From Gemmatimonadota bacterium (GTDB taxonomy: Bacteria > Gemmatimonadota > Gemmatimonadetes > Gemmatimonadales > GWC2-71-9), in the NCBI GenBank assembly GCA_040388535.1, contig JAZKBR010000002.1, positions 458,485 through 522,484 of the forward strand: 64,000 bases of DNA, read 5' to 3'. Below are positions 11,555 through 29,922 of the stretch, in pieces. A program made the position numbers and the translations under genes. Below the pieces are notes generated by a model. That model was not told the DNA's origin, did no database searches, and saw nothing but the letters and a program-made list of their open reading frames with translations. The first letter of the stretch is position 1. Every line of letters starts with the position of its first letter.

Positions 11555-12256
11555 TCACGCCACCTTCTCATCCGCCCCCGGCGCCGGCGGGATGCTTCCG
11601 ACGACGCCGTCTTCGATGTCGTGTTTGGTGAACGGTCCGAAGACATTGCGGGTCGCCTTCCACGCCGCGAGCAGGTCGGGGTCATCGCTGAAGCGGGCGG
11701 TGTTGAGACCATCGAGCACGCCAACGAGGCCAATGCACTGATCGGCGATGTGACCGAAGTCGGCGCGGGCGCCGATGTGATTGCGGCGTCCGGCGTCGAG
11801 GTCGAGCGACGCGGCGAGAAAGGCCGCGATGCTCTTGGTCAGGTCTTCGATGAAGGTGGTGCCGAGGCCGGCTTTCACGAGCAGGTCCTGCTGGTCGGTC
11901 GCCTGCTGGAGCAGGGTGCGGGCGATGCCGAGGAAGACGCGGTTGGGGCCGTTGTACTGGGGGCCGACGAACTTGCCGGCGAGGTCGGGGTTCTCCTTGG
12001 CGGCGAAGTCGGCGACGCGGACGAGGTGGCGGAGCCGTTCGCGGACATCCTGGCGCAGCTTCTTGCGGCGGGCGACGGCGGCGTGTTCGCCGACGGCGCC
12101 GCTGCGCTCCTGGGAGATGATGCTGTCGAACTTGGTCACCAGGGCCGCAAGCCGGGCGACGACGCCGGCGTGACTCTCGTCGGTGGCGGGATAGGCGCGT
12201 TCGAACGCGAGGGCCTTCCCTGCCATCGACATCTTCCTGCGGATGATCGCCTGCAT
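11555..12256 (-). CDS. Hypothetical helical protein
   Basis: 233 residues of unknown function. The ATG at 12256 is chosen over the one 12 nt upstream because GGAGGT stands 5 nt before it. The sequence is almost wholly alpha-helical, with charged heptad-like stretches (SGAVGEHAAVARRKKLRQDVRERL) and no signal peptide or membrane segment. It ends in a short Pro-rich acidic tail (SIPPAPGADEK). The length and composition would suit a cytoplasmic scaffold or stress protein, but no family is recognised. It stands alone between family A/B repeats and the heptad-repeat region. Confidence 0.7.
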   Translation of the reverse strand: MQAIIRRKMSMAGKALAFERAYPATDESHAGVVARLAALVTKFDSIISQERSGAVGEHAAVARRKKLRQDVRERLRHLVRVADFAAKENPDLAGKFVGPQYNGPNRVFLGIARTLLQQATDQQDLLVKAGLGTTFIEDLTKSIAAFLAASLDLDAGRRNHIGARADFGHIADQCIGLVGVLDGLNTARFSDDPDLLAAWKATRNVFGPFTKHDIEDGVVGSIPPAPGADEKVA

Positions 12257-12391
12257 ACCGACCTCCATTGCTGTGGTCCCCTGCTGGGGCGAGAGCCACG
12301 TGCGATTTTTGTGAGGAAGAGTGTCGCGAACCGGTGCCCAAGCCGCCGGGCGACGGGGACCGAAGCGCTAGTGGCGTGCCAGCAGTGGACG

Positions 12392-12427
12392 ATGGATGAC
12401 AGATGGTAGATGACAGATGACAGATGG
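12392..12427. repeat. AGATGAC microrepeat
   Basis: Tandem imperfect copies of gatgacagatg lie in the 278-nt gap upstream of the hypothetical gene. The rest of 12257-12515 shows no gene. Confidence 0.6.
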
Positions 12428-12515
12428 AGCTGAAAGCGGCGCGGGGAGTGGGTTTGCGGAGGTGGGCGGATTTCGGCGGCGAATTCATGCGCAAACTTCT
12501 GGCCATTCTGTGAGC

Positions 12516-12531
12516 GTCCAGATTTCTGGAC
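12516..12531. promoter_or_regulatory. Palindrome upstream of the heptad-repeat frame
   Basis: GTCCAGA-TT-TCTGGAC has 7-bp perfect arms. It lies 3 nt before the first possible start of the heptad-repeat frame and looks like a dimeric regulator site. The regulator is unknown. Confidence 0.35.
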
Positions 12532-12534
12532 AGT

Positions 12535-13242
12535 GTGACCAGGAGAAAGGTCAGTGCGGCCGAGTTGATGGAGGTGAACGCGGGCGAGATGGAGGTGGTG
12601 GGCGGCGAGATGGTCCTGTGCGGTGGCGAGATGGTGGTGGCGCCGCGCTTTCTCGAGGTGAACGCCGGCGAGATGGTGGTGGACGGTCGCGATCTCCTGC
12701 TGGCGCCGCGCGTGCGCGGCGCGGATGCTCGCTTGATGGAGGTGCCAACCGGCGAGATGCTCCCTGCGACCGCGAAGATGCTGTTGGCGCCCCGCTTCCT
12801 CGTCCCCGTTCCCCACTTATTGAAGGTGAACGCCCGCGAGATGGTGTTGAACGATCGCGATCTGCTGCCGTCAAACCGCTTTCTCCTCCCTCACGCCCAC
12901 TTTCTGCTCCCTCACGACGACTTTCTGGACCCTCACGCCCGCGATATGGCGCTGAACATCGGCGAGATGGTCCCGCGTGTACTGGATCTGGACATAGAAA
13001 TCGAATTGATGGTCGTGAATGGCGAGTTGGTGGGGTTCGGGGCGGCGGGGAGGGTGCTCGCGCCTGCGTTTGTCATCCTGAGCGAAGCAGCCCGAAGGGC
13101 TGCGCAGTCGAAGGAGCACCCTCGAACGGCCCCCCCGGCGCCAAGGCCTGATTCGAAAAGGCGAACGCCACCTCGGAGGAAATCCTCGTCAGCGGCGCTC
13201 GGGCCGACAGCTGAGCTGTCGGGGGGTGCCGAGAAGCTGTGA
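12535..13242 (+). CDS. Heptad-repeat low-complexity protein (coding status uncertain)
   Basis: A 235-codon frame whose residues 9-169 break into 23 successive seven-residue units with no insertion or deletion (for example AGEMVVD, GRDLLLA, PRFLVPV, AREMVLN). Position 4 is Met, Leu or Val in all units but one, and positions 2-3 are usually charged or polar. Third codon positions are strongly G/C, as expected for a real gene here. Against this, the other forward frames and two reverse frames are also open, and the C-terminal part (VILSEAARRAAQSKEH) is a family A element in translation. The GTG at 12535 or the ATG at 12571 could be the start. Function unknown; the periodicity suggests a solenoid or extended coiled structure. 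Confidence 0.35.
   Translation: MTRRKVSAAELMEVNAGEMEVVGGEMVLCGGEMVVAPRFLEVNAGEMVVDGRDLLLAPRVRGADARLMEVPTGEMLPATAKMLLAPRFLVPVPHLLKVNAREMVLNDRDLLPSNRFLLPHAHFLLPHDDFLDPHARDMALNIGEMVPRVLDLDIEIELMVVNGELVGFGAAGRVLAPAFVILSEAARRAAQSKEHPRTAPPAPRPDSKRRTPPRRKSSSAALGPTAELSGGAEKL
12559..13041. repeat. Degenerate 21-bp tandem repeat (about 23 units)
   Basis: Units such as ggcgagatggtggtg recur every 21 bases with heavy point divergence but strict phase. Every open frame on either strand therefore encodes heptads. Confidence 0.75.
13071..13137. repeat. Family A half-element
   Basis: Left arm tgtcatcctgagcgaagcagcccgaagggctgcgcagtcgaagg with an internal hairpin (agcccgaagggct). No matching right arm is seen before 13200. 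Confidence 0.65.
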
Positions 13243-14192: not shown

Positions 14193-14357
14193 ATGCCCCG
14201 CCCCCGCTGCCGCTTCGAGTACCGCTACCGCGACGCCGGGAATTACCAGGGGCGGGGGTGGGTGGTGCTGTGGGGGGAGGCTAGCCATGAGAATGAGGCG
14301 CGGATTCGGGCGGTGTTGATCGAGGGGAGCTGGTTTGTGACGGAGGTTGCGGCCTAA
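14193..14357 (+). CDS. Small conserved-type protein at the island edge
   Basis: A 54-residue frame with aromatic and charged content unlike a random frame: FEYRYRDAGNYQ, then GWVVLWGEASHENEARIRA, ending SWFVTEVAA. From memory, similar short proteins of 55-70 residues with FEYRYRDAGNY start in many bacteria and usually continue a little further. If so, this copy is cut at its C-terminus by the junction with the lower-GC island. It converges on the Vsr gene and overlaps its last 4 nt. Function unknown. Confidence 0.5.
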   Translation: MPRPRCRFEYRYRDAGNYQGRGWVVLWGEASHENEARIRAVLIEGSWFVTEVAA

Positions 14358-14767
14358 CTTCGCCCCAGAGCTCGGCGTAGCCTTGAAAGCGTCCCGGCAT
14401 TTCCTAGTCGACATTCCCAGATCCGTAGGACCTTCCAGCCGCAAGCCCGAAGCTGGCGCGCGACACGGCGATCGCGTCGTCTGTTCCCTTCGACCTTTGC
14501 CTTCCAGAACTCCGGGTTATGTCGGGGCGCCTGATAGCAGTTCGGGCATCCGTGCCAGAAGCATCCATCAACAAAAACCGCGACCTTGGAACCCGGCCAT
14601 GCGAAATCGGGCCTACCGGGCAGTGGGAGGTGGCGACGCCAGCCGGACATCCTGAACAACCGCAAAGCGGCGGCCAAACGAAGCTCGGTGCTCGCGTTCC
14701 CCTTGCCTCGGATCGAGGCCATGGTCCGAGCGCGGCCAGGGGTGACAGCAACCGGACCCGCGAGCAT
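14354..14767 (-). CDS. vsr: Very-short-patch mismatch endonuclease (Vsr)
   Basis: DNA nicking enzyme that cuts next to the T of a T:G mismatch left by deamination of 5-methylcytosine and so starts repair. The 137 residues show the Vsr core: helical N-terminus (MASIRGKGNASTELRLAAAL), catalytic D54 in GRPDFAWPG and the zinc/active-site motif VDGCFWHGCPNC (D67, C69, H72, C74). Its ATG overlaps the stop of the DptH-like gene (TAATG), so it is the fifth gene of the methyltransferase operon. It would protect methylated sites from mutation. The family is certain; a role beyond repair is not shown. Confidence 0.88.
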   Translation of the reverse strand: MLAGPVAVTPGRARTMASIRGKGNASTELRLAAALRLFRMSGWRRHLPLPGRPDFAWPGSKVAVFVDGCFWHGCPNCYQAPRHNPEFWKAKVEGNRRRDRRVARQLRACGWKVLRIWECRLGNAGTLSRLRRALGRS

Positions 14768-17700
14768 TAGCGGTTGAGCGCTTTGCGCCCGTCGGGCGTC
14801 GCCATAACTCGCTCATTCACTTCAGTCGCGAGCCCAACGCGAATCAGTCGCTTCACCGCCTCGTCCACCCGACTCGGGATTACACCGCTTACTTCCTGCA
14901 GTTCCGCCAGGAGGGCCCCCTTTTCCTCGCTCCCCATCCGCCGGAGAAGTAATAGCTGGCCATATCCTATGGTCTCGACGAACTTCGCTGGTCGCGTACC
15001 AGCGGTAACAATCGCGCAGAACTCCGAAAGCGCCGCAATCCGTTTCGAAAGTGCATCGGGCAACCCAGTCAATTGCCGAATAGCGGAGACCCGCGTAGCA
15101 TCCGGTCCGTTGCCGTGGATGATTTTGGTTGCAAGGTTTGATTGGACCGTAGGTGGGAAGTCACCGGGATTTTGACTGGACAGTAGAACGCCAACCCCAT
15201 ACGCACGGCATTCACGTGTGAATGCCTCGAGGTCAGGTGAGTCGAGCACCCAGTGTGCCTCGTCAATTACGATCAACTCCCTAAGCGTCGTAGCGTGTTC
15301 TTGCGCGTTTAGGTAACGATGGGCAGAGTAGATCAGCAGGTGCGCAAGGGTCTCCTTGACCCGCTGGGATTGAATCTGACTCAGGTCAAGGACCAACTTT
15401 CTCGAAAGCAGTGAACCGAAAGGCACATCCCGAAATCTATTGCGGAAAATCCCGAGGTCGAACAGTGGTGTCAGCCGGGTGAAGGCCTTCGGGTCGGCCG
15501 CCTCGAGTTCGCGCGCGATGTCGTTGAAATCCGGCCACTCGACAAGTTCCGCAACACTTGGTCTGGTGGATGGATTTACTCCTCGTTCTAGGTATGCTTT
15601 CCTCATTGCCGTTCGTAACGCGTTACCCGCCTGCTGCTCGCCGAGACCGTACGCTCGTTGCAGGGCAGCCTGTACTCCCGAGATATGTTGTGGTAAATCG
15701 AAGTAAGACTCCCCGGTCCCAGGGTGCGTCGAGGCAGCGGGAATCATCGGGTTGAATGGGAGCCCATCGTGAGCAATCCATTGCGGTTCGAGGCTCGCCT
15801 GCCGTAGGAACTCCTGGTCACTCGCAAAGTCATTCTTGAAATCGAGAAAGAGCAGTGGAAGATTTCGTTCTGCCAACTGCACCGCAATCGACTTGATCAG
15901 CTGTGTCTTACCCTTACCAGACGATCCAGTAACCATCAGGTTGTAATTCTCTACCCCCTGTCCAATATCTTCGGTGTCGAAAGCCACAATCTCGTGATCC
16001 TCGGTGATCCCGAGTGACGCGCGGGACCCAGCGCGGGGAAGCGCAAACACCACAGCGTCCAGTACAGGGCTAGCTTGGATTTCACCTGCTCCGGTGATCG
16101 GCGCCGGGTCGAGTGCCACCGGGACATGAGTGGAACTTGGATCCGTACCCACGCCTGGGGCAGCAGAGACGTTAGCCGCAGCTGACGAGGCCACTAGCGC
16201 CTCGCAGAACCTTGGGATCCCAACAATGGCTTCAGAGAACGCACCGTCATTCAACATGCGGGGGAAGTGAGAGGGGCCCAGCTTCACCCACCAGGCATCG
16301 CACCCGTTTACCAACTGAATGGCCTGGGGACGGCAATCCGTGCGACCCTCTTCAGTTGATACAAGCAGCGCCTTGGTCCTCGCCTGCCGCACCTGATACT
16401 CACCACGAAGAATGGCGCCAAGAATCTCTCTCTGAACCAGCGGCGGGATTTGTCCAAGGCGAAGACCATGCTCAACGAGCTTGGCGATGACCCATCTATG
16501 CGCCGAACTACTCGCACCTCGCCTAGCGAGCATTTCGACGCGATCTACCGTGACCTGAGCCTGTCCGGCAAAAGCAGTCGCCTCCGCGAGCGAAATCTCT
16601 CGGTTCCTGTACTTACTTTCGATGCCGGTGAAGCGAAGACTCAAGGGTCCCGTCTCCGACCCAGCAAGTTGGATATGAATCGCCAACAAATCGCAGAATC
16701 GTCGGTCCGTGGCCTCGCCGCGGTCGTCTCTCGGTTGGACTCCGTCCTTCCCTAGCACGTCAGTGAAAGAGTCTACAGGAAGGACAATCACAGTGGACTG
16801 ATCATCACAATTGCCGCGCAGGCTTTCAACCACTCGTGCAGCCCCGATCAACCCGATCACACCCAGTGCACTTGTGCGGCTTCGGTATGTCTCGTTTCCC
16901 ACGCCAATCCCGATGCTGACCAATACTCGCATCGCGTCTTCAGCGGCCGCCGACGTAGGTAGAAACGACCCCTGGATGAGGTCAGTGAAACCACGCGGTA
17001 AAGCCGAGATGATATAGAATGACTCAAATCCACCGGTAGGTGAGATTCGATAGTCCCAGAGGAATCTCTCTTTCCCTGGATTGGCTAGTGAGGCACGGCT
17101 CCATTTCAACAGCACCGCCGGATCGGCGTGCCCGCCGGGAATGACAACCCAACGAGCATGATCGGTTCCATCAACAGGCAACCGCCACTTAGTGGACCTT
17201 AGTGCACCTCCCGCTTCTTGCGCGCCGACAAGGGCAGCCAGAAACGCCCCAGATGCTCCGGTTGCTTCGGGGTCCAACGAGCTTGTTTCATCGGACGCCG
17301 AGCTAGGTACTGTATGCAGTCCTGCGGCCACTTCGCGCGATGGGATCATCAGAATGCATGAATCTCCGCGCCCCCTCGCGACTGTTAGCCGAGCGCTCAC
17401 ATCGGCTATCGGCTCAAAGTCTGGGTGTGCCTTTGAACCCGCCAGCACGAGATCGACACGGGATTCCATGTCACTCACCCCGGAATAAATACAAATAGGA
17501 GGTTCAGTCCAGCTCGGACTGTTGTCCTCGCTCGGCACCACTCCAGGGATGTGCAAGTGAATACCACCAGGTAACGATTGAGCCCTACTGGTGGAATTGC
17601 CATCGGAATCGAAGAGGAACGGACGCACCAAGTCCATTACTCGCTCCTCATCGTAGGACCCATCAACCCTAGCAACGATGGCGCGCCGTGACGGAAACGC

Positions 17701-20292
17701 CCGCATGTAGAGTTCGAGGTACTTCGCGATGTCGACACCGGCCGGCTCCGGAGCCAGGCTCGCCTCGACCCCAAATGCGTTCATGATCAAGTGTTGAGCC
17801 TGATCGAGCGACTCACCTTTTGATTCCGCAACAGCATACCAGCCCGCATCCTCCGTAGGCCCGGAGTAGAACGGAACGGGAAGGGTATCCGGCCCGAGGC
17901 CAGGCATCCAGCGAAAGGACGTTACCCTGGCAAAGACTTCGACCAACAATCTGACGTCGGGATCTGGACCTGCTTCTGCGATGAGTTGCAGAATGTTCGC
18001 TTGCGTGAAATACCGGCTGGCTACGACAAGCGGGTGCCATGGTCCGAGCAGAGCACAGCGGGGCCCGGACCCGACATGCACGACGCAATCGAGGTTCGCG
18101 AACAGGAATTGATGGGAATAGCTCCGGCTCTGCGCGGCCCCACGAAGACTATGGAGTATTCGCCTGTACGATTCTAGATAACCTTCCAGCGCGGCTTCGA
18201 CCGCCGCCCGCGAGGATGGATCAGGATGAAAGAGCGGGAGGGACGCATACAAGGCTCGTCCGGCAGACGTACTGCTACTGAACTGAGTCTGAATTATTCC
18301 CATGAAGGTCGCACGGGCTGTAGCATAATCAACTAGGAGTGCCCGATCTTCCAGGGACTGGGGTTCCTCGATCCTGAGAGCTGCCGGCAGGGACGCGAGT
18401 GTAGTGTCATTGAGATACCGTATCACACCATGCACGTGGACGTGCGACGAGGCGTAGCTGACTGAATTGAAGTTGATCAGGACCGGCAAAACGGATTCTT
18501 CCGAAACACCATGCTCGAACACCGAAGCCAACTCAATCAAGAATTGGTAGGCTTGCGAGCGCGGCGTTCCTATGAACGCGTCGCTGGATCGCTTGTTCGT
18601 GAAGACCTCATGGGCTTCTGAAACGCGCTGACGGCTGCCATGCCGAAGAGCGTGCAGTAGGGCGTCGTGTACTGTGGCAGGACCTCGTCGCCTGTCACCG
18701 CCCACTAGTAGGCCGGCAAAGGGCTCCCCATCAATACTTACCGAAAGCACGCTTCCATTGCCAGCGATCGAAAACCCCTTAGCACCGAGCGAAAGCATTG
18801 GAAACCGATCAGTGACCATTGCTAGCTCCGACGACGTTCCATCGAACTCGGCGTGCGTCAGCACTTGTTCCCTGAAGGGAGGGAAGTGAAGCGTCGTGCC
18901 ATGGTCCGCAGGAATCGACCCAAGCTCCCCAACCTCAGGCAACAACTGAAGGAGTTCGACCTTGTCGGAGCCCCCAGCTACCGTTCTCTCCGAAATGACG
19001 AGTGGCGTCGTCGTACACGAAATGAGGAATAGGGTCATTTCGGACCGAAATCGCCCACTTGAGGAACTCACGTCGACCCTTACGACTTGCTTCAGTTTTG
19101 CCTTTAGGCCAGCCAAGTCGAGCTGCATTTCGAATGCGTCTTGGGGTACCGTCGTCTCGGCTCTTCCCAGAGTACGTCGCCCCACTGACGCGACGACTTC
19201 ATATCGCCCGACTGGCCCGGTTAGCCTGATCTTGAGTGTGGGATTCTGTACTTCTGTGCAAGCCATGCTTTTTCCAGTAAGGCTGATGAAGCAGGCACCC
19301 GACTCGCAGCCATGCCAACTTATCGACGCCTCGAGCTCCTCCGAGCCGATAGTCGCTTCATCAAGGAATAGCCGTCTAAGCACTGCAAGCGAGAGCAAGC
19401 CCCAGTCGTCTATTGACCAGTCCTCAGAAGCTTGGAGTCCCTGAGTCAGGGCGAGTACGCCCGCTGGCTGCATGGCCAGCGCGCCAAGGCGATCCAAAAA
19501 GCGGGAGATGGTTTCCTGAAGTAGATCGACATCGAGCTCTAGTTCTGCAGCAACGGTGCGCGCGCGCTCTGACACAATTCCACGGATGTTGGGTTCACGA
19601 AGCCGTGTAAGAAGTGTCTTGCCCACGACCTGACGGCACGCTTGAATGTGGTCCCGAATCCCATCCGGCGTTGTTGACGCACTGTCTCTCGGGATTCCGA
19701 TCGCGTAGCACAGATATTCGATCCGGGCAATGTCCGAAATATCAGGTGGACAGGCCTTCGAGAGGAGCTTGTCGAAGAGAAACGCTGCCCTCCCTTCTTG
19801 CCAGGGCTCCAAGTCGTGAACCACCGCCTGAATCACATCGATACAGAGTCGTTCCCAGACAGGGTTGGTGAACCCCCAGGCCGCGACACACGAGGGGAGA
19901 ACGGCTTGGTCAAAATCAAAAACGGACTGGCCGCCCGGAGCCCAGGGCCATTCGTTGGCAAAGGCAACCGACCTGATCGCGCCGCCCGTTCCGGACATGC
20001 TGTCCTGAAGGTGGGAGAGCGTCCCAGGCATCAAGACCAAAAGGAAGCTTCCCTCGCGAACTGTTGTCAGCGACTCAGGAAGGAGCCGTTGATCGGTCTC
20101 ACTCGGACCCTCAGTCGAGCCCGGCAGAAGAACCCGGTATGAGGGGAGTCGTAACGACCTCAACATGGCATGGAGCTCGACGGCCACCCTTTCAGTCGGG
20201 CAGGGGATGACAATCCGAAACTCTCGCATCCCATTCTCAGCCATTGAAGCGGCAACCCCAGCCATCGCCTTTACGAGCGGATTGACTGACAT
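14767..20292 (-). CDS. DptH-like restriction ATPase: HerA/FtsK-type motor with internal PD-(D/E)XK-like segment
   Basis: 1841 residues, probably the motor and possibly the nuclease of the restriction half of the system. The C-terminal 400 residues are a HerA/FtsK-type ATPase: Walker A from G1456 (GSSGKGKT), LLFLDFKNDF, Walker B IDEAHW (D1677-E1678) and sensor-like GVLLSSQNPGDF. In Dnd systems DptH has this C-terminus and a similar size. Residues about 1180-1260 carry D1201 in CDLLAI, then E1225-x-K1227 in GIESKYR, a PD-(D/E)XK nuclease pattern. The N-terminal 1100 residues are not recognised. The last 80 residues look like a winged helix. The start directly follows the TAG of the DptG-like gene (0 nt) and its stop overlaps vsr. 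GC content is lower than in the flanks. Confidence 0.6.
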   Translation of the reverse strand: MSVNPLVKAMAGVAASMAENGMREFRIVIPCPTERVAVELHAMLRSLRLPSYRVLLPGSTEGPSETDQRLLPESLTTVREGSFLLVLMPGTLSHLQDSMSGTGGAIRSVAFANEWPWAPGGQSVFDFDQAVLPSCVAAWGFTNPVWERLCIDVIQAVVHDLEPWQEGRAAFLFDKLLSKACPPDISDIARIEYLCYAIGIPRDSASTTPDGIRDHIQACRQVVGKTLLTRLREPNIRGIVSERARTVAAELELDVDLLQETISRFLDRLGALAMQPAGVLALTQGLQASEDWSIDDWGLLSLAVLRRLFLDEATIGSEELEASISWHGCESGACFISLTGKSMACTEVQNPTLKIRLTGPVGRYEVVASVGRRTLGRAETTVPQDAFEMQLDLAGLKAKLKQVVRVDVSSSSGRFRSEMTLFLISCTTTPLVISERTVAGGSDKVELLQLLPEVGELGSIPADHGTTLHFPPFREQVLTHAEFDGTSSELAMVTDRFPMLSLGAKGFSIAGNGSVLSVSIDGEPFAGLLVGGDRRRGPATVHDALLHALRHGSRQRVSEAHEVFTNKRSSDAFIGTPRSQAYQFLIELASVFEHGVSEESVLPVLINFNSVSYASSHVHVHGVIRYLNDTTLASLPAALRIEEPQSLEDRALLVDYATARATFMGIIQTQFSSSTSAGRALYASLPLFHPDPSSRAAVEAALEGYLESYRRILHSLRGAAQSRSYSHQFLFANLDCVVHVGSGPRCALLGPWHPLVVASRYFTQANILQLIAEAGPDPDVRLLVEVFARVTSFRWMPGLGPDTLPVPFYSGPTEDAGWYAVAESKGESLDQAQHLIMNAFGVEASLAPEPAGVDIAKYLELYMRAFPSRRAIVARVDGSYDEERVMDLVRPFLFDSDGNSTSRAQSLPGGIHLHIPGVVPSEDNSPSWTEPPICIYSGVSDMESRVDLVLAGSKAHPDFEPIADVSARLTVARGRGDSCILMIPSREVAAGLHTVPSSASDETSSLDPEATGASGAFLAALVGAQEAGGALRSTKWRLPVDGTDHARWVVIPGGHADPAVLLKWSRASLANPGKERFLWDYRISPTGGFESFYIISALPRGFTDLIQGSFLPTSAAAEDAMRVLVSIGIGVGNETYRSRTSALGVIGLIGAARVVESLRGNCDDQSTVIVLPVDSFTDVLGKDGVQPRDDRGEATDRRFCDLLAIHIQLAGSETGPLSLRFTGIESKYRNREISLAEATAFAGQAQVTVDRVEMLARRGASSSAHRWVIAKLVEHGLRLGQIPPLVQREILGAILRGEYQVRQARTKALLVSTEEGRTDCRPQAIQLVNGCDAWWVKLGPSHFPRMLNDGAFSEAIVGIPRFCEALVASSAAANVSAAPGVGTDPSSTHVPVALDPAPITGAGEIQASPVLDAVVFALPRAGSRASLGITEDHEIVAFDTEDIGQGVENYNLMVTGSSGKGKTQLIKSIAVQLAERNLPLLFLDFKNDFASDQEFLRQASLEPQWIAHDGLPFNPMIPAASTHPGTGESYFDLPQHISGVQAALQRAYGLGEQQAGNALRTAMRKAYLERGVNPSTRPSVAELVEWPDFNDIARELEAADPKAFTRLTPLFDLGIFRNRFRDVPFGSLLSRKLVLDLSQIQSQRVKETLAHLLIYSAHRYLNAQEHATTLRELIVIDEAHWVLDSPDLEAFTRECRAYGVGVLLSSQNPGDFPPTVQSNLATKIIHGNGPDATRVSAIRQLTGLPDALSKRIAALSEFCAIVTAGTRPAKFVETIGYGQLLLLRRMGSEEKGALLAELQEVSGVIPSRVDEAVKRLIRVGLATEVNERVMATPDGRKALNR

Positions 20293-21861
20293 CTAGTTGC
20301 CTCCCCCGACACTCGAGGTATACTCGACGGACACCATCACTGCCGAGCCCGCGTCCGGGGCCCCTCGCAAAAGACCGAGCTGCTCAAGTCGTTTTATCAA
20401 GTCAGTCCGAGCACCGCCTGCTCGCGCAAAGTCGATGCCGTATTCCCCGAAGTGCCGCTCGATTCGGGAGAGGGGGACCACCCTGGCTACCCTGCCATCT
20501 TGGTCTACGGCTGCCAGATGGGCGAAGAGCGATAGCAGCCTGCTCGATGGGAAGACGCGGTAGAGCCGCTGTACCGTCGGAGCACGGTGAAGTAGGAAAC
20601 CATTGTCCGTGCTATCGGCCCTATCGTCAGTCAGGACTCGCAAGAACTCGTCTAAATTGTTTCCTGTCGTCCCCTGCGCGAGCGGGTCACGCCAGGCCTT
20701 CGCACCTTCGGAGGCTCGCTGCACCCCTCGGAGAAGTTCCTCCCCCTGCTCTCCGGGAAACGCCTCCTGTAACGCTCGGGAGAGTTCGGTAACAGGTAGA
20801 AGTCCGCTTCCGGCGAAAGTGGACAAGATCCGCCCTTCAAGCACCTGCGCCACTGAGCCGTTCGCCGCGCCCGCATGCAATAGCGCATTCAGCTCGACTC
20901 GTGCGGCCATAAACTCCGCCACGCGCGTTGGAATCGGATTACACAATGTTTCGGTCGGGTCGAGTAGTCCGATGTTGCGCGAGCCAATTCGAGCGGAGAA
21001 ACCTTCCGGGTCCGGAAGTGGTCCACCGCAAAGCCCTTCTCGAAGCGCATCGCGAACAATCGCTGTCATTCGCATCTGTGCAAGAAGCCACATGCCTGCC
21101 GAAACACAGAGAAACGCCTTGAGGACCTGGATCCATTCGAGCCGTGGGATCTTCGGCTCAAGGCGACAGATGGCTCTCCAATCATTGGCTATGTGTATTG
21201 CCAAGCCGTCTGGCGACGATCCGTTCAGCCCAGACGGAATTGCGAACTTTGATCTCTGAAAACGTTCGGCAAGCCAGGACGTCGCTTGTTCTGTCCCGAA
21301 CATTTCTGGAGGTAATTCGGCAGCGTTTGCAGCAATATGCAGCAAATCGCGAGGCTCGAGCGCCCCACCATCCAGTGCCACTACTGTCTGGTTCGCTAGC
21401 TCATTCGCTTCTCGCTGTCGATCACTCGGCGACAATGAGCTCGCCAATGCCCCATCCAGCAACAGCTGCCTCAGCGCGACATCTGACTGTTTTCGAAACC
21501 ACCCGTGCGCAGCCAACCGGGGAAATGCCGGAGCGTAATAATGATTGGTTTGGTTGGATTTGGTTGCACTCGCCCTCCGCTTAGTGCGACCCCGTAAGGA
21601 GTAGAGAACAGCTCGCGCCTCGTTGCCTATCAGAAGGGTGTCCGGGTCGAGATTTCGTTGTTTGGTGTCGACGGGAGTACCCGTATGTCGATTCGCCCCG
21701 AAGAAGACCTCGCGGAAGAGCTCTAGCACCAATTCCTCTGGAGCGTTCCGCAATCCTGTTGTCGGAACGGCAAAGAAACTCTCCTTATAAGCTGCGTGCG
21801 GTTCGACTTCGTTCCTTGTGACCGTGAATGGTATGGCCTCGAACACGGCGCTGTCGATCAT
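20293..21861 (-). CDS. DptG-like restriction protein
   Basis: 522 residues, mostly helical, with no recognised catalytic motif and one hydrophobic helix (AFLCVSAGMWLLAQM, about 265-280). The ending, YGIDFARAGGARTDLIKRL followed by EQLGLLRGAPDAGSA, looks like the C-terminal winged helix of DptG, the middle component of phosphorothioation-dependent restriction. The size and position between DptF-like and DptH-like genes agree. Its ATG overlaps the stop of the upstream gene (ATGA) and its TAG abuts the next ATG, so the three should be made together. Assignment rests mainly on gene order; a profile search could change it. Confidence 0.45.
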   Translation of the reverse strand: MIDSAVFEAIPFTVTRNEVEPHAAYKESFFAVPTTGLRNAPEELVLELFREVFFGANRHTGTPVDTKQRNLDPDTLLIGNEARAVLYSLRGRTKRRASATKSNQTNHYYAPAFPRLAAHGWFRKQSDVALRQLLLDGALASSLSPSDRQREANELANQTVVALDGGALEPRDLLHIAANAAELPPEMFGTEQATSWLAERFQRSKFAIPSGLNGSSPDGLAIHIANDWRAICRLEPKIPRLEWIQVLKAFLCVSAGMWLLAQMRMTAIVRDALREGLCGGPLPDPEGFSARIGSRNIGLLDPTETLCNPIPTRVAEFMAARVELNALLHAGAANGSVAQVLEGRILSTFAGSGLLPVTELSRALQEAFPGEQGEELLRGVQRASEGAKAWRDPLAQGTTGNNLDEFLRVLTDDRADSTDNGFLLHRAPTVQRLYRVFPSSRLLSLFAHLAAVDQDGRVARVVPLSRIERHFGEYGIDFARAGGARTDLIKRLEQLGLLRGAPDAGSAVMVSVEYTSSVGGGN

Positions 21862-24263
21862 ATGACGTCCCCATCGAGCACCACTTTATCGCTTCCATAG
21901 CGAGTCAACGTCCATGCACTGTTGGACGGACGCTGAATCACTAGCGAGACTCGCGGTGGCCGCTGCTCAACACTCCTGGAGTAACCGCCCTGCGATGCGG
22001 CTCTCTGCAAGGCAAGCCTGCCCGCCTCCGCGATCTGCTGCGGCATCGTCCAGAGCATCAATCCAGTCTTCCTCCGATATTGGAGCCAACAGAAAGACTC
22101 CGTGCTCACCGTAAGCGGCGCGGAACCACCAAACACCACATGCAACCTGGGAAGCCCTGCCTCATTGTCGTCGCGAATCTCCGGTGCGAGCCGACTATTC
22201 GCCCAGTCACCTCCAAGTTCCGCGGCGAGGGTGAGTCGAATCCCTTTCGCGCCTTCCTGAAGAATTGCTTGTAGCTCCATGGCCAGACTGTCCCGTTCCG
22301 CGTCTGACAACGGTTCACCAAGACCCACGGCATGACGAAAGTCACCAAGTTCCGCCGAGAACCAGTGACGTCCGAGCGCGAATGCGCCGTATCGAATCGA
22401 AAACGCCGAGCGCCACCTGTGAACTAGCGTCGACATTGCCAAATCTGCGCGCTGCGCAGCCAGGTACTGCTCAATCTTCTCCCATGCGGCCAGAAGCCTG
22501 CGTTCCAAATCTCCAACCAACGCTGGTGCCCAGCTTGGGTCGTCCAGACCGGCGAAGATTACTTCCCAACCATCAAGGTCATTGTGAATCGGCCCCTTGA
22601 ACGGGTCGAGTCGTCGCAGCCACCCGTTAGGCCCAATTAGGCGTGGAACACCGACATCTACCGACGGCATCAGGTTGGACTGAGGAAGTCGAGCACTCGC
22701 GCCAGCAAGAGTCAGCAGCGCGCCAAGTCTGTCAATGTCAGAGGCCGTTGCCTCGGAGGAAGCAATACCCAGCGGTTCAACCGCGGCGAACAGCATCATC
22801 GGTAGCCGGCGGGACGCGAGTGAGAAGATTTCGTCTCGTGCGTTCCGCTCATGGACCCACTCGCAAGGCCCGCTCGTGCCGTAGTCGAGCGGAACTCCAG
22901 CGAGTATCACTGAAAGCAGCGCCTGAGCCTCCCTGAACACCACTGGCTGCATGCTTAGAAGCTCGGCGTCCCCGACCAGCGTTAGGAACCGATCCATCCC
23001 AGCCGTTGTGGAAAGCAGTTCGCGGTTGCCGAAGAATGGGCAAACCCTTGCAGACGGACAGGTGCTACACACAGACCAGTTGTCGGGTGAGGTAGCTGCG
23101 TTGGTTAAACTACGGAATTCCCTGTCCGATGAACGGATTAGGGAATGGGAATCGAGGGCATCCCAAGATAGGAGTACAGAGCGCTCGAGCAGCAGGACAT
23201 CTCTTGGATCGCCCGAGTTTCGAGCTGCCGCTAGATCGACGAGCATCGACTTAAGCGTGCCTTCAAGAGCATGGTTTCCCGCCTGCTCGAGAATGCCGCG
23301 GTTCACGCACACCCACACCGAGGCCCCTGCTTGTCGCGCCGATTCCAAGACCTGTGCAAAATCCTTCGCCGGGTCTGGCATGGCCGAATACGGGTCCGAG
23401 ACTACAGACGCGTCCTGCACGATGTACAGGCTCGGAATTTCGGAGTCCGGCGGAATGAGCCGGATCGAGACCGGAAGGTTTCTTGGCGCAGCTTCAAGAA
23501 TCGGGTGATCGAACTCGTCCAACGCTCTCCACTTCCGCTGCACCAATTCACGGACGAGGCGGCCAGTCGCGGCGGATTTCCCATTCCCTGGTGACCCGAC
23601 AAAGAAATGCCAGGCTGGCACAGACGGATCGGCCGCCAAGTGACTCAGCATTCGATCGACCGATCGGTAGGTAACGGTCTCGGAAATTTCCAGAACTGGC
23701 AGTTCGCTCCACGACGACGGGGCACTTATTGCGCCGGTACCGTCTTGTTGCAAAGTGAGGAGCCTTTCGAGAAATGGGTTGACGACGACACCGGTGGTTC
23801 CCGAAACCCCCTGCGCGCTATGCAAGATGTTGTGTAGCGGTGTGCCAATTTCATCTGCCGTCGCCATGAGCGATTGATCGCTAGCATTGACCACAACGAG
23901 ATCGCCCCGGACTACCAAGACCGAGAGTACGTTGCCGGCCTTAGCATAGTTGGGGAGTGACTTGAACCAGATTCTCGGATCGCCGTCCCCGCTGTTCGGT
24001 CGGTATAATGTCGCAACCGTTCGCGAAAGCTCTGCTGACCCAACGAACCAGGCGGTAGTTGTGATTTTCGAATCTGGCCCTTTCCCTTGACGTCCGTAGT
24101 CGTGGACAGCCTGATCCGAGAGGAACTCTCGCAAAGAATGCGGAGCATCGAGCACAGACTTCGAAAGTCCAGTATCCGTCGGAACTAGAATGCCGCAGGC
24201 CACCCCGCGTTCCTTGAAGAAGGCGATAACATCTTCTGGCGGCCGATCTGGGAGAGGGGGCAT
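21858..24263 (-). CDS. DptF-like P-loop ATPase with unassigned N-terminal domain
   Basis: 801 residues. A Walker A motif lies at about 223-230 (GSPGNGKS) after a beta-rich N-terminal region of about 180 residues, and a CSTCPSARVC cluster (C399, C402, C408) suggests a structural zinc. DptF proteins of Dnd restriction are P-loop ATPases with a cysteine cluster but are usually shorter (about 500-550 residues). The extra N-terminus (GILVPTDTGLSKSVLDAP, then RTVATLYRPNSGDGDPRIWF) has the feel of a B3/EcoRII-N-like DNA-reading fold and may recognise the site or its methylation. That is speculation. ATG overlaps the methyltransferase stop (TAATG); its TGA overlaps the DptG-like start. Confidence 0.5.
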   Translation of the reverse strand: MPPLPDRPPEDVIAFFKERGVACGILVPTDTGLSKSVLDAPHSLREFLSDQAVHDYGRQGKGPDSKITTTAWFVGSAELSRTVATLYRPNSGDGDPRIWFKSLPNYAKAGNVLSVLVVRGDLVVVNASDQSLMATADEIGTPLHNILHSAQGVSGTTGVVVNPFLERLLTLQQDGTGAISAPSSWSELPVLEISETVTYRSVDRMLSHLAADPSVPAWHFFVGSPGNGKSAATGRLVRELVQRKWRALDEFDHPILEAAPRNLPVSIRLIPPDSEIPSLYIVQDASVVSDPYSAMPDPAKDFAQVLESARQAGASVWVCVNRGILEQAGNHALEGTLKSMLVDLAAARNSGDPRDVLLLERSVLLSWDALDSHSLIRSSDREFRSLTNAATSPDNWSVCSTCPSARVCPFFGNRELLSTTAGMDRFLTLVGDAELLSMQPVVFREAQALLSVILAGVPLDYGTSGPCEWVHERNARDEIFSLASRRLPMMLFAAVEPLGIASSEATASDIDRLGALLTLAGASARLPQSNLMPSVDVGVPRLIGPNGWLRRLDPFKGPIHNDLDGWEVIFAGLDDPSWAPALVGDLERRLLAAWEKIEQYLAAQRADLAMSTLVHRWRSAFSIRYGAFALGRHWFSAELGDFRHAVGLGEPLSDAERDSLAMELQAILQEGAKGIRLTLAAELGGDWANSRLAPEIRDDNEAGLPRLHVVFGGSAPLTVSTESFCWLQYRRKTGLMLWTMPQQIAEAGRLALQRAASQGGYSRSVEQRPPRVSLVIQRPSNSAWTLTRYGSDKVVLDGDVI

Positions 24264-25546
24264 TAGCGCTTCCCGTGAAGGATGTCGCGAAGATGAACTC
24301 CGATCTGATACGCAAGCTGAACTGGCACTGCGTTGCCTATTTGTGTGTACTTAGGCAACTCTCTGTCAAAGACGCCCAGCCGCGGATTACCGGCGCGGCG
24401 AAGCCCACCGGTTGTCCGCTTCCCGGAAAACTGGTACCAATCAGGGAAGCCCTGTAGTCGAGCCCACTCTCTTACCGTCAGCGTTCTTGGTTGGGAAAAG
24501 TGAACGTAGTCATCCGGCAGCGAGGTGGCCGTGATAGTGGGCCCGACGCCCTCATCCCAATTCTCGGGCAACACGCGTTGCGCAAACTTCTTTGTTGCGA
24601 AACGAGCGGGAACACGGCCATCGCCCGCCAACATCGCCTCAAACTTCTCGACCACTTTCGCCGAATGGTTGCTGTATTGGTGCTCTTCTACTGCTGAGCC
24701 TTTCCGGCTAACAGGTCCACCATCACGAGGGGTTCGAAAACGCCGTTGGATGCCGGTCGCCGCATTGGGATAAGCCTCCGTGGCCCCACCGTTCTGGTAG
24801 TCCGGATCAACCAAGTCGCCGAGCAGTTCGCCCAGATGTGGGGGCTCGGCCTTGATCGAACTCGGCAAGAACCCGCGGTCCACGGCGTCATTCGATAACT
24901 CAGACTCGCTTCCTGGGAGATTACTGATGTCCCTCCTCAACCCGACAAGTATGAGACGCGGGCGATTCTGCGGCACGCCATAGTCCTTCGCGTAAATCAA
25001 CTGCGCTGCGATCTGGTATGTCCCTAGGCTCTTGAAAGTTTGATAGACGTCTTCCCAGATTTGCCCAGGCCTACCGGACGGCGTCCACCTGCCATTTAGC
25101 AAGCCCCGGACATTTTCAAAGACGAATGCCTTTGGCTGCAGCCCTTGAATCGCAGTCGCCATGTCTTCGAAGAGTCGATTTGCTGGAAGGTCTTCCTTCG
25201 CGACCGAGTATGATCGCCGGTGCCCAATCCCAGAGAAACCTTGGCACGGTGGGCCACCGACCAGCAAATCGATCTCGCCCGCCTTAATCCCGAGTTCTGT
25301 GTCAAGCTTCGCCTGCAAGTCGTGCAGTGCTTTGGAGTGCTTCGTCAGTTTCCGGACATCATTAACCGACAGTCCATACTCCTCGATCCACGGCGCAATT
25401 TCCCTTCGATTGCGCATCCACGTTTCGAGGGCGTCAGGGTTCAGCTCATTGACGAAAACGGGCTGGAAGTCAGCCTGCTCAAGTCCCAGCGACATTCCGC
25501 CGCAGCCAGCAAATAGATCAATGAACGTGAGCTTGTCGGTCAGCAT
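24263..25546 (-). CDS. dcm: DNA (cytosine-5-)-methyltransferase
   Basis: Transfers methyl from SAM to C5 of cytosine in a specific DNA site. All key motifs are present in 427 residues: I (DLFAGCGGMSLGL, 10-22), IV (GGPPCQGFS, nucleophile C101), VI (FENVRG), VIII (QNRPRL), IX (REWARLQGFPD) and X (IGNAVP). The target-recognition region (about 230-340) is not assignable to a site. It is the first gene of a five-gene coupled operon with three Dpt-like genes and vsr, so it probably supplies the self-mark for that restriction module. The Dcm/Vsr pairing hints at, but does not prove, a CCWGG-like site. The ATG at 25546 starts directly before the usual N-terminal motif I. Confidence 0.93.
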   Translation of the reverse strand: MLTDKLTFIDLFAGCGGMSLGLEQADFQPVFVNELNPDALETWMRNRREIAPWIEEYGLSVNDVRKLTKHSKALHDLQAKLDTELGIKAGEIDLLVGGPPCQGFSGIGHRRSYSVAKEDLPANRLFEDMATAIQGLQPKAFVFENVRGLLNGRWTPSGRPGQIWEDVYQTFKSLGTYQIAAQLIYAKDYGVPQNRPRLILVGLRRDISNLPGSESELSNDAVDRGFLPSSIKAEPPHLGELLGDLVDPDYQNGGATEAYPNAATGIQRRFRTPRDGGPVSRKGSAVEEHQYSNHSAKVVEKFEAMLAGDGRVPARFATKKFAQRVLPENWDEGVGPTITATSLPDDYVHFSQPRTLTVREWARLQGFPDWYQFSGKRTTGGLRRAGNPRLGVFDRELPKYTQIGNAVPVQLAYQIGVHLRDILHGKR

Positions 25547-25715
25547 GGTGTCTTGAGCACTCCAAAATCAAGAACGAGCATAGATGGTCTCTGAAATGCG
25601 GCGCACTCGGAGATCGTCCAGATGGCCTCAGCTTCAGCAGCCCCGCCAATGGCTTGGCGCGAATGCTAGGAACCTGATCGCTGGCATTCGGATAGGTGGT
25701 GAGGCGTTCGGGTGA

Positions 25716-25750
25716 AAAAGTTAGCGGCAATCGCCCCGCTTCCCTAACAG
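25716..25750 (-). terminator. Possible rho-independent terminator
   Basis: On the minus strand an imperfect GTTAG...GCTAAC hairpin (core AGCGG-loop-CCGCT) is followed by TTTTT. It lies after the small genes at 25831-26854 and before the methyltransferase. If active, it separates the two transcripts. The rest of 25547-25830 shows no gene. Confidence 0.4.
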
Positions 25751-25830
25751 GGTCACCTCCCCGCTAGCCCACGACTCGGGATCACAAGCGATAGAGCTTT
25801 GGCTGCCTGAGGAGATCAACACTTGGGGCG

Positions 25831-26094
25831 CTAGGATCGCTTGATGTACCCTGGAATCGCAGCGATTCCAGCCCTGACATTCGTCTCCTTTCCAATTGAC
25901 AGATAGGGACAGCGGCGCCATGCGTCCTCTGACGCAAAGACCACGTAGCCATTCGGATCGAAGAGGGCGCCTGGGAACCTTTCCAAATTGTTGTACCAAA
26001 CCCCGTCCTTATGATAGAGCGCGTGCTTCACAAGGACCTTCCATTGCCGCGCAAGCCCGACCCCGGTAACGCGCTTTCCCAATTGGCCTGACAT
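25831..26094 (-). CDS. Small hypothetical protein (IPGYI C-terminus)
   Basis: 87 residues of unknown function. The second half has a compact conserved-looking pattern: WYNNLERFPGALFDPNGYV, then CPYLSIGKE, NVRAGI and IPGYIKRS. From memory this arrangement occurs in short standalone proteins and at the ends of HNH-type nucleases in other bacteria, but no catalytic residues can be named. It follows the upstream gene after 14 nt and is the last of a three-gene set (26854-25831) next to the modification-restriction operon. Lower GC than the chromosome. Confidence 0.65.
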   Translation of the reverse strand: MSGQLGKRVTGVGLARQWKVLVKHALYHKDGVWYNNLERFPGALFDPNGYVVFASEDAWRRCPYLSIGKETNVRAGIAAIPGYIKRS

Positions 26095-26108
26095 AACACG
26101 AGCTCCGT

Positions 26109-26483
26109 TCAGTCAGGGCTGAGCTGCAGCCTTCCGTTCGATGGTAATTCCTTCACCGCCGCTTCAAGGAGCTCGGATTGTGGATTCCCATGCCCTAGCC
26201 AGTCGTACCCAAACACCGCCGCCTGCGCGCCAGCGAAATCCTCGGCCGAGGCGCCGGTAAACCCGGGCCCGGGGAGGCCGGACTCCTGTTGGACCACCAA
26301 GACCGTCAGCGGCGGCAATGAACGGAGGAGGCAGTATGACTGGATCGGTTCGAGTAGTTGGCCGAGCCCTGCTGTGGGCACGCCTATCAACTTCGCCAAC
26401 TGTCCGTATGTAAGGCTCTGCCGACCTCTGGCTGCCCACGCTAAGACTGCCCAGATTTGGCTGGCACGCTCGGATCGGGTCAC
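26109..26483 (-). CDS. Hypothetical protein with winged-helix-like N-terminus
   Basis: 124 residues from the GTG at 26483. That start is chosen because it overlaps the upstream stop as GTGA; the longer frame has no comparable signal. Residues 3-60 (ERASQIWAVLAWAARGRQSL, YGQLAKLIG) look like a winged helix-turn-helix, followed by a strand-rich part (LPPLTVLVVQQESGLPGPGF). From memory, similar proteins with a TYGQLA motif are common in bacterial genomic islands. No function is established. It is translationally coupled to the preceding gene, so the pair probably acts together. Confidence 0.65.
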   Translation of the reverse strand: MTRSERASQIWAVLAWAARGRQSLTYGQLAKLIGVPTAGLGQLLEPIQSYCLLRSLPPLTVLVVQQESGLPGPGFTGASAEDFAGAQAAVFGYDWLGHGNPQSELLEAAVKELPSNGRLQLSPD

Positions 26484-26854
26484 ATTGACGCTCCCGGTTT
26501 CTTGACCCAATCCAAAGCTTGGAGCGCCTCGGCGAGCTCTGGATGCATCAGCCAACGCCAGTGCGGATTGTCTTCATCCGGTTCGACGAAAGAAGCGATC
26601 ACGAAAGCTGCCTGAGCCCCAGCCTGAATTTCCCAATTCATCCGCTCCGCCAATCGCAGGCCGAACTGTCCGTCCTGCAGGTTGATCGTGTTGTAGTTGG
26701 GGTATCCCACTGCCGCCGCCAGGTCGGTGGCGGTGGCCGTGTGCGCGGGAAATTCGTAGTGCCGAAGGAGCAGTTTCTTGTGCTTCGGTGCAATCGCGTG
26801 TTTGAGCTCGTAGGGCGCTTTCCGGTATTGCTCTGCAGAAGGTAGGTCGTGCAT
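26480..26854 (-). CDS. Hypothetical protein, first of a coupled pair
   Basis: 124 residues. It begins SAEQYRKAPYELKHAI and has a helix-turn-helix-like stretch (TATDLAAAVGYPNYNTINLQ), then an aromatic C-terminal part (DEDNPHWRWLMHPELAEAL). No family is named with confidence; the pattern suggests a DNA-binding accessory protein. Its stop overlaps the next start as GTGA. It lies 70 nt after the half attC at 26898-26930, so this set may be an integron-type passenger or the island's own flank. Confidence 0.65.
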   Translation of the reverse strand: MHDLPSAEQYRKAPYELKHAIAPKHKKLLLRHYEFPAHTATATDLAAAVGYPNYNTINLQDGQFGLRLAERMNWEIQAGAQAAFVIASFVEPDEDNPHWRWLMHPELAEALQALDWVKKPGASM

Positions 26855-26897
26855 CGAATCCTTACCTCAAGCCGTTCATAGGAAGAGTGTCGACCGC

Positions 26898-26930
26898 TTT
26901 GGCCTCGACGGCAGCAAGCGCGAGTTAGAC
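26898..26930 (-). repeat. Half attC-like site
   Basis: Read on the minus strand it begins GTCTAAC and continues TCGCGCTTGCTGCCG, nearly the same as the left half of the complete attC at 27462-27580. The matching GTTRRRY half is not found within 130 nt. The stop codon of the GIY-YIG-like gene lies inside it, as is usual for cassettes. Confidence 0.5.
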
Positions 26931-27422
26931 GGCTGGCCTCGCACCAGGGATGGCTCCGAAATGGGCCCGCAACGCGTCCAGCAAATGCTGCTCTGCGAGA
27001 AGGACGTCAGTGCCCGCCCAAGTCGCGCCGCCTGGCTTCATCAGTCGCAAGTGCGAATGAATGTTGGACGCGCCGGATTGGAGCAAGGGATTGAGCTTCC
27101 GGCAAATGGAGCGCTCTTCGGTAGGGTTATCGGAGATGTGTTGCCAAATACAATCGTGGCCCTGTTGCTTCAGATAGTGCAGCGCCGTGCCGACCACGAA
27201 GTCGGTGTCAAGCCGCTTGCCCTTGTCGCTGGATACACAACTTCGCTGCGCTTCTTGAACACCGCGCTTAAGCGTACTAGGTGCACCAACCGTCTTAGCA
27301 CGATTCCCGGCGCAACCAACATAGATCGTCACCTCACCATCAGCGTGCCGGTAAAACCAGCGATACACGCCTTTGGCCGGCTGCTCCGGAGCGTTGGGAT
27401 TGTCAAACATGATTTGGGCCAT
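26925..27422 (-). CDS. GIY-YIG-like protein in a gene cassette
   Basis: 165 residues from the ATG at 27422. The opening KGVYRWF ... EVTIYVG matches the GIY-YIG nuclease pattern, a later arginine in LKRGVQEAQ suits the catalytic Arg, and ERSICRKLNPLLQ resembles the conserved Glu and closing helix. If active it would be a small single-domain nuclease. The frame is open upstream only by reading through the attC site at 27462-27580. Its stop codon falls in the next attC-like box (GTCTAAC), so the gene plus site form a classic integron cassette. Function in the cell unknown. Confidence 0.55.
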   Translation of the reverse strand: MAQIMFDNPNAPEQPAKGVYRWFYRHADGEVTIYVGCAGNRAKTVGAPSTLKRGVQEAQRSCVSSDKGKRLDTDFVVGTALHYLKQQGHDCIWQHISDNPTEERSICRKLNPLLQSGASNIHSHLRLMKPGGATWAGTDVLLAEQHLLDALRAHFGAIPGARPAV

Positions 27423-27461
27423 GATCAACTCCGCGAACGACCGGTACCGGAAATGATTGCC

Positions 27462-27580
27462 GCCTAACGGCTCGGCGCTTCTGCCGCGGGGCGTGGCGTT
27501 GCCGCCGCAGTCCATAAGTGGAGAATACATCACGGTGGCCGAACCGGCTTGGCCTCGTCGGCGGCAAGCGCGTGTTAGGT
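27462..27580 (-). other. Integron attC recombination site (119 bp)
   Basis: Read on the minus strand it starts ACCTAAC (RYYYAAC) and ends GTTAGGC (GTTRRRY). The inner arms pair: CGCGCTTGCCGCC against GCGGCAGAAGCGCCG. The small mismatches in the arms are those expected of an attC hairpin. It separates the HEPN/DUF262 cassette from the GIY-YIG-like cassette. Confidence 0.8.
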
Positions 27581-27621
27581 CGCGATCCTACATCGAGCCA
27601 GCACGCTGAGTCTCCTGCCCT

Positions 27622-28152
27622 TCATCGCGGGCACGTGGCCAGCAGGTCAGGCAATCGCGCCACGAACAGTGACGCCCGCGCGTAGGCCGCAAATATCTCA
27701 TCGGCCGTTTTCTCGAGGACGAAGGTGCCGAATCCTTGATGAACCAATCGATTGCGCTCGTCGCCCAGCTGCAAAAAACTCGCAATGGCGTCCTTAAGGG
27801 CAGCGTCAGCCCCAATCGCTGCGTTCGCGTGCCGTTTGAATTCATCGCCGAATAGCCCGAAAAATTGGTTTGCGTTGGCGGCATCCCACTTGAACAGTGT
27901 ATGGTACTGCCTCGCAAGCGCTTTGCTGCGCACGAAGGCTACGAGTGGCGACGAGCCTCCAGCCTCGGTTTCGGCGAAGGCGGTGATCACCGAGGTGATC
28001 GCAAGCTCAAACTCACTAGCCGCAGCGAGCAATAGCGATTTTCGAAAGACATCATTTGCGGTGATCGCCAGAGACGGTTCGACGCTCGCATCGATCACAC
28101 TAGTTAGCGCAAGAAAGTCGTCGTGCAATTGAGCGACGATGCTCGTGCTCAT
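27622..28152 (-). CDS. HEPN-domain protein (RiboL-PSP/MAE_28990-like), probable RNase toxin
   Basis: 176 residues, all helical. The HEPN nuclease motif R-x4-H is intact in GDERNRLVHQG (R133, N134, H138), near the end of the last long helix, as in HEPN ribonucleases. Family members cut RNA as toxins or effectors. It starts 8 nt after the DUF262 gene, and the pair lies between two attC sites as one two-gene cassette. DUF262 next to a RiboL-PSP-type HEPN is a recurring arrangement in defence islands, so an abortive-infection or toxin-antitoxin role is likely but inferred. Confidence 0.7.
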   Translation of the reverse strand: MSTSIVAQLHDDFLALTSVIDASVEPSLAITANDVFRKSLLLAAASEFELAITSVITAFAETEAGGSSPLVAFVRSKALARQYHTLFKWDAANANQFFGLFGDEFKRHANAAIGADAALKDAIASFLQLGDERNRLVHQGFGTFVLEKTADEIFAAYARASLFVARLPDLLATCPR

Positions 28153-28160
28153 GAATACAC

Positions 28161-29342: not shown

Positions 29343-29368
29343 TTCTAGAGGATTGTGCCGTTATTAGG

Positions 29369-29439
29369 ACCTAACTAGCAATTGTGCTGCAGAGCCGTCC
29401 ACGACAACCCTCCCGGTCCCGCTCAGCAACACGTTGGAC
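29369..29439 (-). other. Integron attC recombination site (71 bp)
   Basis: Read on the minus strand it begins GTCCAAC (RYYYAAC) and ends GTTAGGT (GTTRRRY). Arms GTGTTGCTG and CAGCACAATT pair imperfectly. Length and end boxes fit an attC. It lies just upstream of the DUF262 gene, giving that cassette its left boundary. Confidence 0.7.
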
Positions 29440-29479
29440 GGAGAGTCTCGGCAATGACCGGCGAGTACTCCGGGTACTT

Positions 29480-29605
29480 TCAGGGCCTTACTACTGCGAC
29501 AGGGACCGGCTTCACGCTCGCCCCTGCTTCGAAGCCCGAATGCTCGGAAGCGCGCAGGAGCCGCACGAGCTCGTCCACCCGCTCTCGCGTGATCTCGGAC
29601 AGCAT
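29480..29605 (-). CDS. Short frame before the attC, possible cassette remnant
   Basis: A 41-codon frame (MLSEITRERVDELVRLL, then RASEHSGFEAG) with an amphipathic first helix. It ends 41 nt before the attC at 29369-29439. It may be a short cassette gene or the start of a truncated one. No function is seen, and chance cannot be excluded. Confidence 0.25.
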   Translation of the reverse strand: MLSEITRERVDELVRLLRASEHSGFEAGASVKPVPVAVVRP

Positions 29606-29922
29606 TTAAGTGCTAGCCTCTGTCCCAAAGGGTGCGGGGGCCGTCCTCAGCCTGGGAAGCTCGGGGACGGGTGTGACAGTCGGGCGGTGGTGCGTGACTA
29701 TGTAAGGGTCGCGCCTGCCTCTCCTTCCTGCAAGCCCCTTCTCCCTCCTCCCTTCTCCTGCTAACCTCCCCGCACGGTTCGCTTCCGTCTTGGCGACCCG
29801 GGCATCTCGAATGGTGGCACGCTCGCCACCTGCCAACCGACCGCTCGCCCGAGCGTCACGGTGGCTCCCCGACTCCGGGGGATGCGCGCACGAGACGGCT
29901 CGACCGCGACAGGATCGTCCCA

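Follow-up and report, generated by a model that had tools for sequence, protein, structure and literature searches.

A diverged 21-bp array and its neighbouring orphan gene as a candidate two-part chromosomal element

Plasmid iterons are direct repeats spaced about two helical turns apart beside the gene of a Rep initiator, and their sequence differs between replicons. In plasmid centromeres of the parC/ParR type a small protein is encoded beside phased repeats, and CRISPR-Cas loci pair an array of constant repeats, separated by unique spacers, with cas genes. The arrays described here resemble the iteron-Rep arrangement in being phased direct repeats beside a single protein gene. Unlike it, they lie on large contigs of the genome with up to eight copies per genome and about 20 units each, their units are almost free in sequence and unrelated between loci, and no Rep-type domain is recognised by Pfam in ten members of the protein family. 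With parC/ParR centromeres they share phased repeats adjoining the gene of a small protein that could in principle polymerise there, but the unit sequence is not conserved and Pfam recognises no partner motor gene among the example neighbours compared. As in CRISPR, a regular array stands beside a conserved protein gene; unlike CRISPR, the unit is 21 bp, the ten arrays inspected contain no constant repeat block, and the family gene gives only weak single-member PADLOC hits. Genes for heptad-repeat or solenoid proteins also retain a 21-bp register, and the window copy has a hydrophobic pattern as they do, but its sister arrays are frequently not open and lack codon periodicity. As far as the opening lines of abstracts reveal, the open literature holds no account of such a system.

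In the window, the 64-kb stretch of DNA analysed here, the core of the unstranded array spans 12565-13047 and consists of 23 clean in-phase units of 21 bp, with a mean identity to consensus of 0.60 and no indels. The original prediction of 23 in-phase units whose phase is never lost is thereby confirmed, although one decayed unit at each end (at 12544 and 13048) makes the array slightly longer than claimed (12544-13068). Self-identity is 0.50 at a lag of 21 bp, 0.48 at 42 and 0.46 at 63. Because the remaining multiples of 7 give just 0.27-0.29, the array has no 7-bp sub-repeat; its derivation from a 7-bp microsatellite was considered and ruled out, lag-7 identity being that of background. Nowhere else in the window does lag-21 identity exceed 0.5 over 210 bp. 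The restriction of heptad 'position 4' to Met, Leu or Val in 22 of 23 units also holds, this being codon 2 in the present register (Met 12, Leu 9, Val 1, Arg 1). Three of the six frames are stop-free across the array, namely the EMVVNGR frame, +2 and -2, in agreement with the earlier statement that several frames are open and the coding strand uncertain, and the heptad family is still unrecognised, with no Pfam relative. The open EMVVNGR frame behind that observation (12535-13242, plus strand) is judged not to be a gene. The final 65 codons look non-coding whichever frame is scored, and they run into an apparent dispersed intergenic repeat. An old expansion kept in register, one of the two origins initially proposed, is borne out for the window array, which is most likely an old, diverged copy of a two-part element.

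A gap of 287 bp (12257-12543, unstranded) separates the array from the neighbouring gene. It contains a GATGACA heptamer microsatellite (12395-12426, plus strand), and a comparable tract adjoins the second array of this genome, described below. However, 7-bp tracts are frequent in the window: short microsatellites of 7-bp units, differing in sequence, lie between genes at 9437, 12395, 34281, 35715, 36819, 45549 and 55999. On the gene-proximal side of the array the sequence also contains an unstranded palindrome, GTCCAGA-TT-TCTGGAC (12516-12531), a possible candidate operator. Another palindrome, CGTCCGTGACGGACG, lies at the gene-proximal end of the sister arrays L160, L161 and L163, with one base off in L161.

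The second array (locus L002, positions 1375-1845) lies 555 kb away in the same genome and has about 20 units with the same column profile. Units are as similar between the two arrays (0.468) as within them (0.462 and 0.484), and they are not collinear (P 0.54). A family gene or gene fragment was looked for near this array and none was found; L002 is most likely an array without a gene. An AraC-type regulator and a proline-rich ORF lie next to it.

The gene next to the window array is an unannotated member of an orphan family of about 235 aa (11555-12256, minus strand), with its 5′ end facing the array at a distance of 0.3 kb. Its start at MQAIIRRK (12256) was set by alignment, and an in-frame ATG is present at 12268. 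A search of 395 genomes with the consensus peptide of the array matched four other genomes, and two loci in genome G248 led to the association of gene and array; the G248 gene beside this independently found array aligns with the window gene family at 20% identity. Within the genus the gene was matched in 5 of 10 genomes, and among the 12 matches listed a lag-21 run (>0.40) lies 5′ of the gene in 10, including the window, 3′ in one, and is absent in one. A profile whose seeds were homologues of the window gene, except for the G248 row found through its array, recovered 107 copies in 44 of the 288 genomes of the order. In a phylum sample the family occurs in 34 of 351 genomes, all within this order. 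A tree of 93 members splits the two families of the order with 100/100 support. No convincing relative was found in Pfam, NCBIfam, PADLOC, PHROGs or PDB, and ten members gave no supported Pfam family; weak hits of single members in these libraries, at best E 2.9e-6 to pyruvate kinase in NCBIfam, recur in no other member and were therefore taken to be chance. The protein is probably all-helical, judging from the family alignment, and no DNA-binding domain was found in it.

Association of gene and array was measured in the flanks of 100 of the 107 copies; the 5′ flank reached 600 bp or more in 87 of these and the 3′ flank in 95. Lag-21 identity reaches at least 0.45 over 168 bp on the 5′ side in 65/87 copies and on the 3′ side in 16/95. 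At the same cut, 5′ control lags of 16, 17, 19, 20, 22, 23, 25 and 26 give 0-2/87 and a lag of 28 gives 3/87. Background was taken as 300 kb in 20 stretches from 13 of the family-bearing genomes, cut into 200 pieces, and 18 of these pass 0.45 through coding 3-periodicity; in an earlier control 4 of 39 unrelated loci exceeded it. As the 0.45 cut is lax, the excess of lag 21 over lags 18 and 24 was used as the test. A strict excess of at least 0.16 is found 5′ in 60/87 copies, 3′ in 5/95 and in 4/200 background pieces, and a looser excess of at least 0.12 in 71/87, 13/95 and 19/200, respectively. Identity of at least 0.50 at lag 21 occurs in 47/87 of the 5′ flanks and in 0/200 background pieces. 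Lags of 15, 18, 24, 27, 30 and 33 show no comparable excess, while lag 42, twice 21, does. The looser cut is passed in 37 of 41 genomes and in both families of the order (27/35 and 44/52 copies). Copies without a detectable 5′ array number 16/87 at the looser cut and 27/87 at the stricter, and four of the 16 (L157, L194, L217 and L219) have a 3′ excess of at least 0.20. The anatomy of a two-part element, gene plus array, is well supported and very probably correct. At L098 a gene fragment of 37 residues remains beside its array, which we read as a decayed copy in which array and gene decay together.

Properties of the arrays were drawn from 61 examples lying 5′ of family genes, taken at an identity of at least 0.5 in a 105-bp window and a length of at least 189 bp, a detection biased towards regular arrays. 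Their median length is 408 bp, or about 19 units, and they lie at a median distance of 103 bp (0-833) from the gene match. Averaged over the arrays, autocorrelation has peaks at 21 bp and its exact multiples as far as 210 bp, and nowhere else. In single arrays the strongest lag around 105 is 105 itself in 50/61, and around 210 it is 210 itself in 32/46; frameshifting indels are therefore tolerated, yet rare beside heavy substitution. Column conservation has 1.62 times random power at one cycle per 21 bp and 1.31 times at two. The effect of a conserved half is small (0.599 versus 0.581). Between loci, unit similarity is close to a column-permuted null except between closely related copies. L161 and L163 of one genome have proteins 94% identical over the compared stretch, with one difference in the first 100 residues and the remaining changes in the middle and tail, and their arrays differ, with unit similarity below the 95% null line. 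The C-terminal tail in this pair, the last 35 or so residues, is hypervariable and Ala-, Gly- or Pro-rich.

Our preferred reading, to which we give a probability of about 0.5, is that gene and array form one chromosomal element of two parts, in which the array is the DNA part and is selected for spacing as a scaffold for the neighbouring protein or for a partner of it. The element would comprise the gene of the orphan protein of about 235 aa and a non-coding array, usually 5′ of it, whose 21-bp units each correspond to about two turns of B-DNA. Selection would act on spacing and not on sequence, because a protein, most simply the product of the neighbouring gene, would assemble along the array by helical turn, making one contact per two turns in an assembly comparable to those of iterons with Rep or of centromeres with ParR. 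A period fixed at two helical turns combined with free letters points to such a phase-read scaffold. Behind the observed association, fixed period, turnover of units, lack of coding signal across the set and rare register shifts, the mechanism would be a protein that reads the array. Closely related proteins stand beside differing units, which disfavours plain sequence-specific binding and leaves phase reading of a scaffold or a fast-changing specificity. Against the scaffold, the strand asymmetry of the arrays is unexpected for symmetric DNA, the register is not absolute, and some copies have no detectable 5′ array. A bolder and rather doubtful extension is that these loci represent a new class of element on the chromosome. 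Helical phase, and not base sequence, would let a protein nucleate on the DNA; the array would keep its two-turn spacing alone while its letters turn over completely, and paralogues within a genome would diversify their arrays together with the middle and tail of their proteins. Such diversification might keep the paralogues from cross-reacting, in the manner of plasmid incompatibility groups.

The possibility that the array instead encodes a heptad-repeat protein of xGEMVVx pattern was mildly supported at first on the two own-genome arrays. EMVVNGR is the only frame open in both, with no stops where column shuffling predicts 3.7 and 1.6 (P 0.005 and 0.14), and there is no indel among the 43 units compared. 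Its codon log-odds of 0.387 and 0.327 bits per codon lie within the host-gene range (0.467, sd 0.107, for 483-bp pieces of 15 host genes; wrong-frame 95% point 0.207), above column shuffles (P 0.0035 and 0.0245) and above simulated neutral decay, which reached them in 0/2000 cases for each array. However, the best frame of a random 21-mer reaches a comparable codon score with a probability of 0.18, comparison of units gives a pN/pS of about 1 whichever frame is read (1.10 in the window, 0.98 in L002; weak evidence at saturation), codon positions of the window array vary about equally, and synonymous sites run against host usage (at position 1 Asp is GAT in 10/10 and Phe TTT in 8/9; at position 4 Val is GTG in 14/14). 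AlphaFold2 returned a pLDDT of 30 for both array products with two sequences or one, that is with almost no alignment; the products have no Pfam relative, and that of L002 no PDB match. On the sister arrays the protein was then rejected. At least one stop-free frame exists in 43/61, without strand preference (gene strand in 30 arrays, opposite strand in 28), and 18/61 are stopped in all six frames. Even the best frame contains at least as many stops as expected from column composition (mean P 0.64), and codon-frequency power is 0.73 times random, so that the set shows neither stop avoidance nor 3-bp periodicity. Total stops do fall below shuffled expectation on both strands (365 versus 516 and 484 versus 600), a deficit we read as linkage between neighbouring columns because it is not tied to a strand. 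Since the sister arrays lack a coding signal and some are shifted in register by a single base, a heptad protein fails for the family and is very improbable for the window, where the open frame probably stems from the particular unit. The suggestion of selection on a heptad protein is thus not supported: the frameshifts and equal substitution at codon positions named beforehand as evidence against it were found, across loci and units rather than strains.

Two further explanations were considered. The array may act as RNA, as a long 5′ leader or divergent transcript on which proteins load with a 21-nt footprint. Its position at the 5′ end of the gene would suit this, and strand asymmetry keeps it alive: G is rarer than C on the gene strand in 44/61 arrays (p=1.8e-4; GC skew -0.084), whereas the distal flanks are balanced (skew -0.003, negative in 28/55). 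Against it, the window has no Rfam match, folding of the 61 arrays is close to that of shuffles (mean z -0.63 and -0.92 for the two strands) and four copies have the array 3′ of the gene, and we regard an RNA as improbable. Structured RNA in the own-genome arrays was likewise discarded, as their fold z values (0.76 for the window, -2.26 for L002) are not consistent. Scarcely more probable is a passive minisatellite, a functionless set of 21-bp copies made by slippage beside a gene that tolerates them. Central re-expansion would predict the homogeneous array centres observed (neighbour identity 0.60 versus 0.41-0.44 at the ends), and close neighbour units differ by ordinary transition-rich substitutions (54% of 773). 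Such a minisatellite, however, should have no tie to one gene family or one period, and here both are common to the two families of the order without shared sequence, and the periodicity is of lag 21 and its double and not of other triplet lags. Neutral DNA should also show many indels, and here the register is mostly retained despite heavy substitution. That shifts of register are so rare speaks against a passive origin, though array detection itself is biased towards regular arrays.

Conserved elements are normally found by their sequence, and here the conserved property is the period. Because only the period is conserved, sequence searches miss the element: searched at the DNA level, the own genome yielded the L002 array but no hit at the array that accompanies the paralogue of the window gene on C9 (L132). 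Searches further afield gave no matches for window array DNA in 60 relatives, matches to the L002 protein in 288 genomes of the order in the own genome only, and no matches in plasmids, phages and viral contigs. A DNA pattern matched 26 of 394 genomes of the class, with arrays of this kind in the own genome only; these matches were sorted by eye from the matched strings and the rest read as chance or other repeats. A pattern scan of an 84,980-species collection gave one match, by chance, inside a gene. The DNA profile R1 had miscalibrated E-values (201/201 genomes 'match'), and none of the 14 foreign loci inspected is an array (L080 without readable core). If selection acts on spacing, as in the scaffold we favour, the element would offer a natural example of DNA recognised by its phase, one whose protein can be tested, whose arrays exist in many natural variants and for which the controls are clear.

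Other 21-bp arrays (loci L092, L093 and L094) occur in G080 (PCPYNAL, in an 891-aa frame), G353 (TVANPTQM) and G414 (GDTIVQA, in an 835-aa frame). At least the long frames of the G080 and G414 arrays may be true heptad-repeat proteins unrelated to the two-part element.

The window array adjoins a low-GC island (about 58%; 14354-30000) that looks like a defence island. Its genes include a HerA-like/AAA protein of 1841 aa, a C5 cytosine methylase and a GmrSD-type protein, together with a small ORF (14354-14767) that we take to resemble a Vsr-type endonuclease. Around the family gene elsewhere (L180, L208 and related loci), one small ORF lies directly 3′ at 13 loci from 5 genomes and a second at 5 loci, also from 5 genomes; DUF2188 is matched by an example of the first and, barely, by an example of the second. 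At 11 loci from 5 genomes (L164, L141 and relatives) a homologous ORF is present on the distal side, beyond the array, and the G248 example of this distal ORF (L097:3283-4023) matches sigma-70 region 4.
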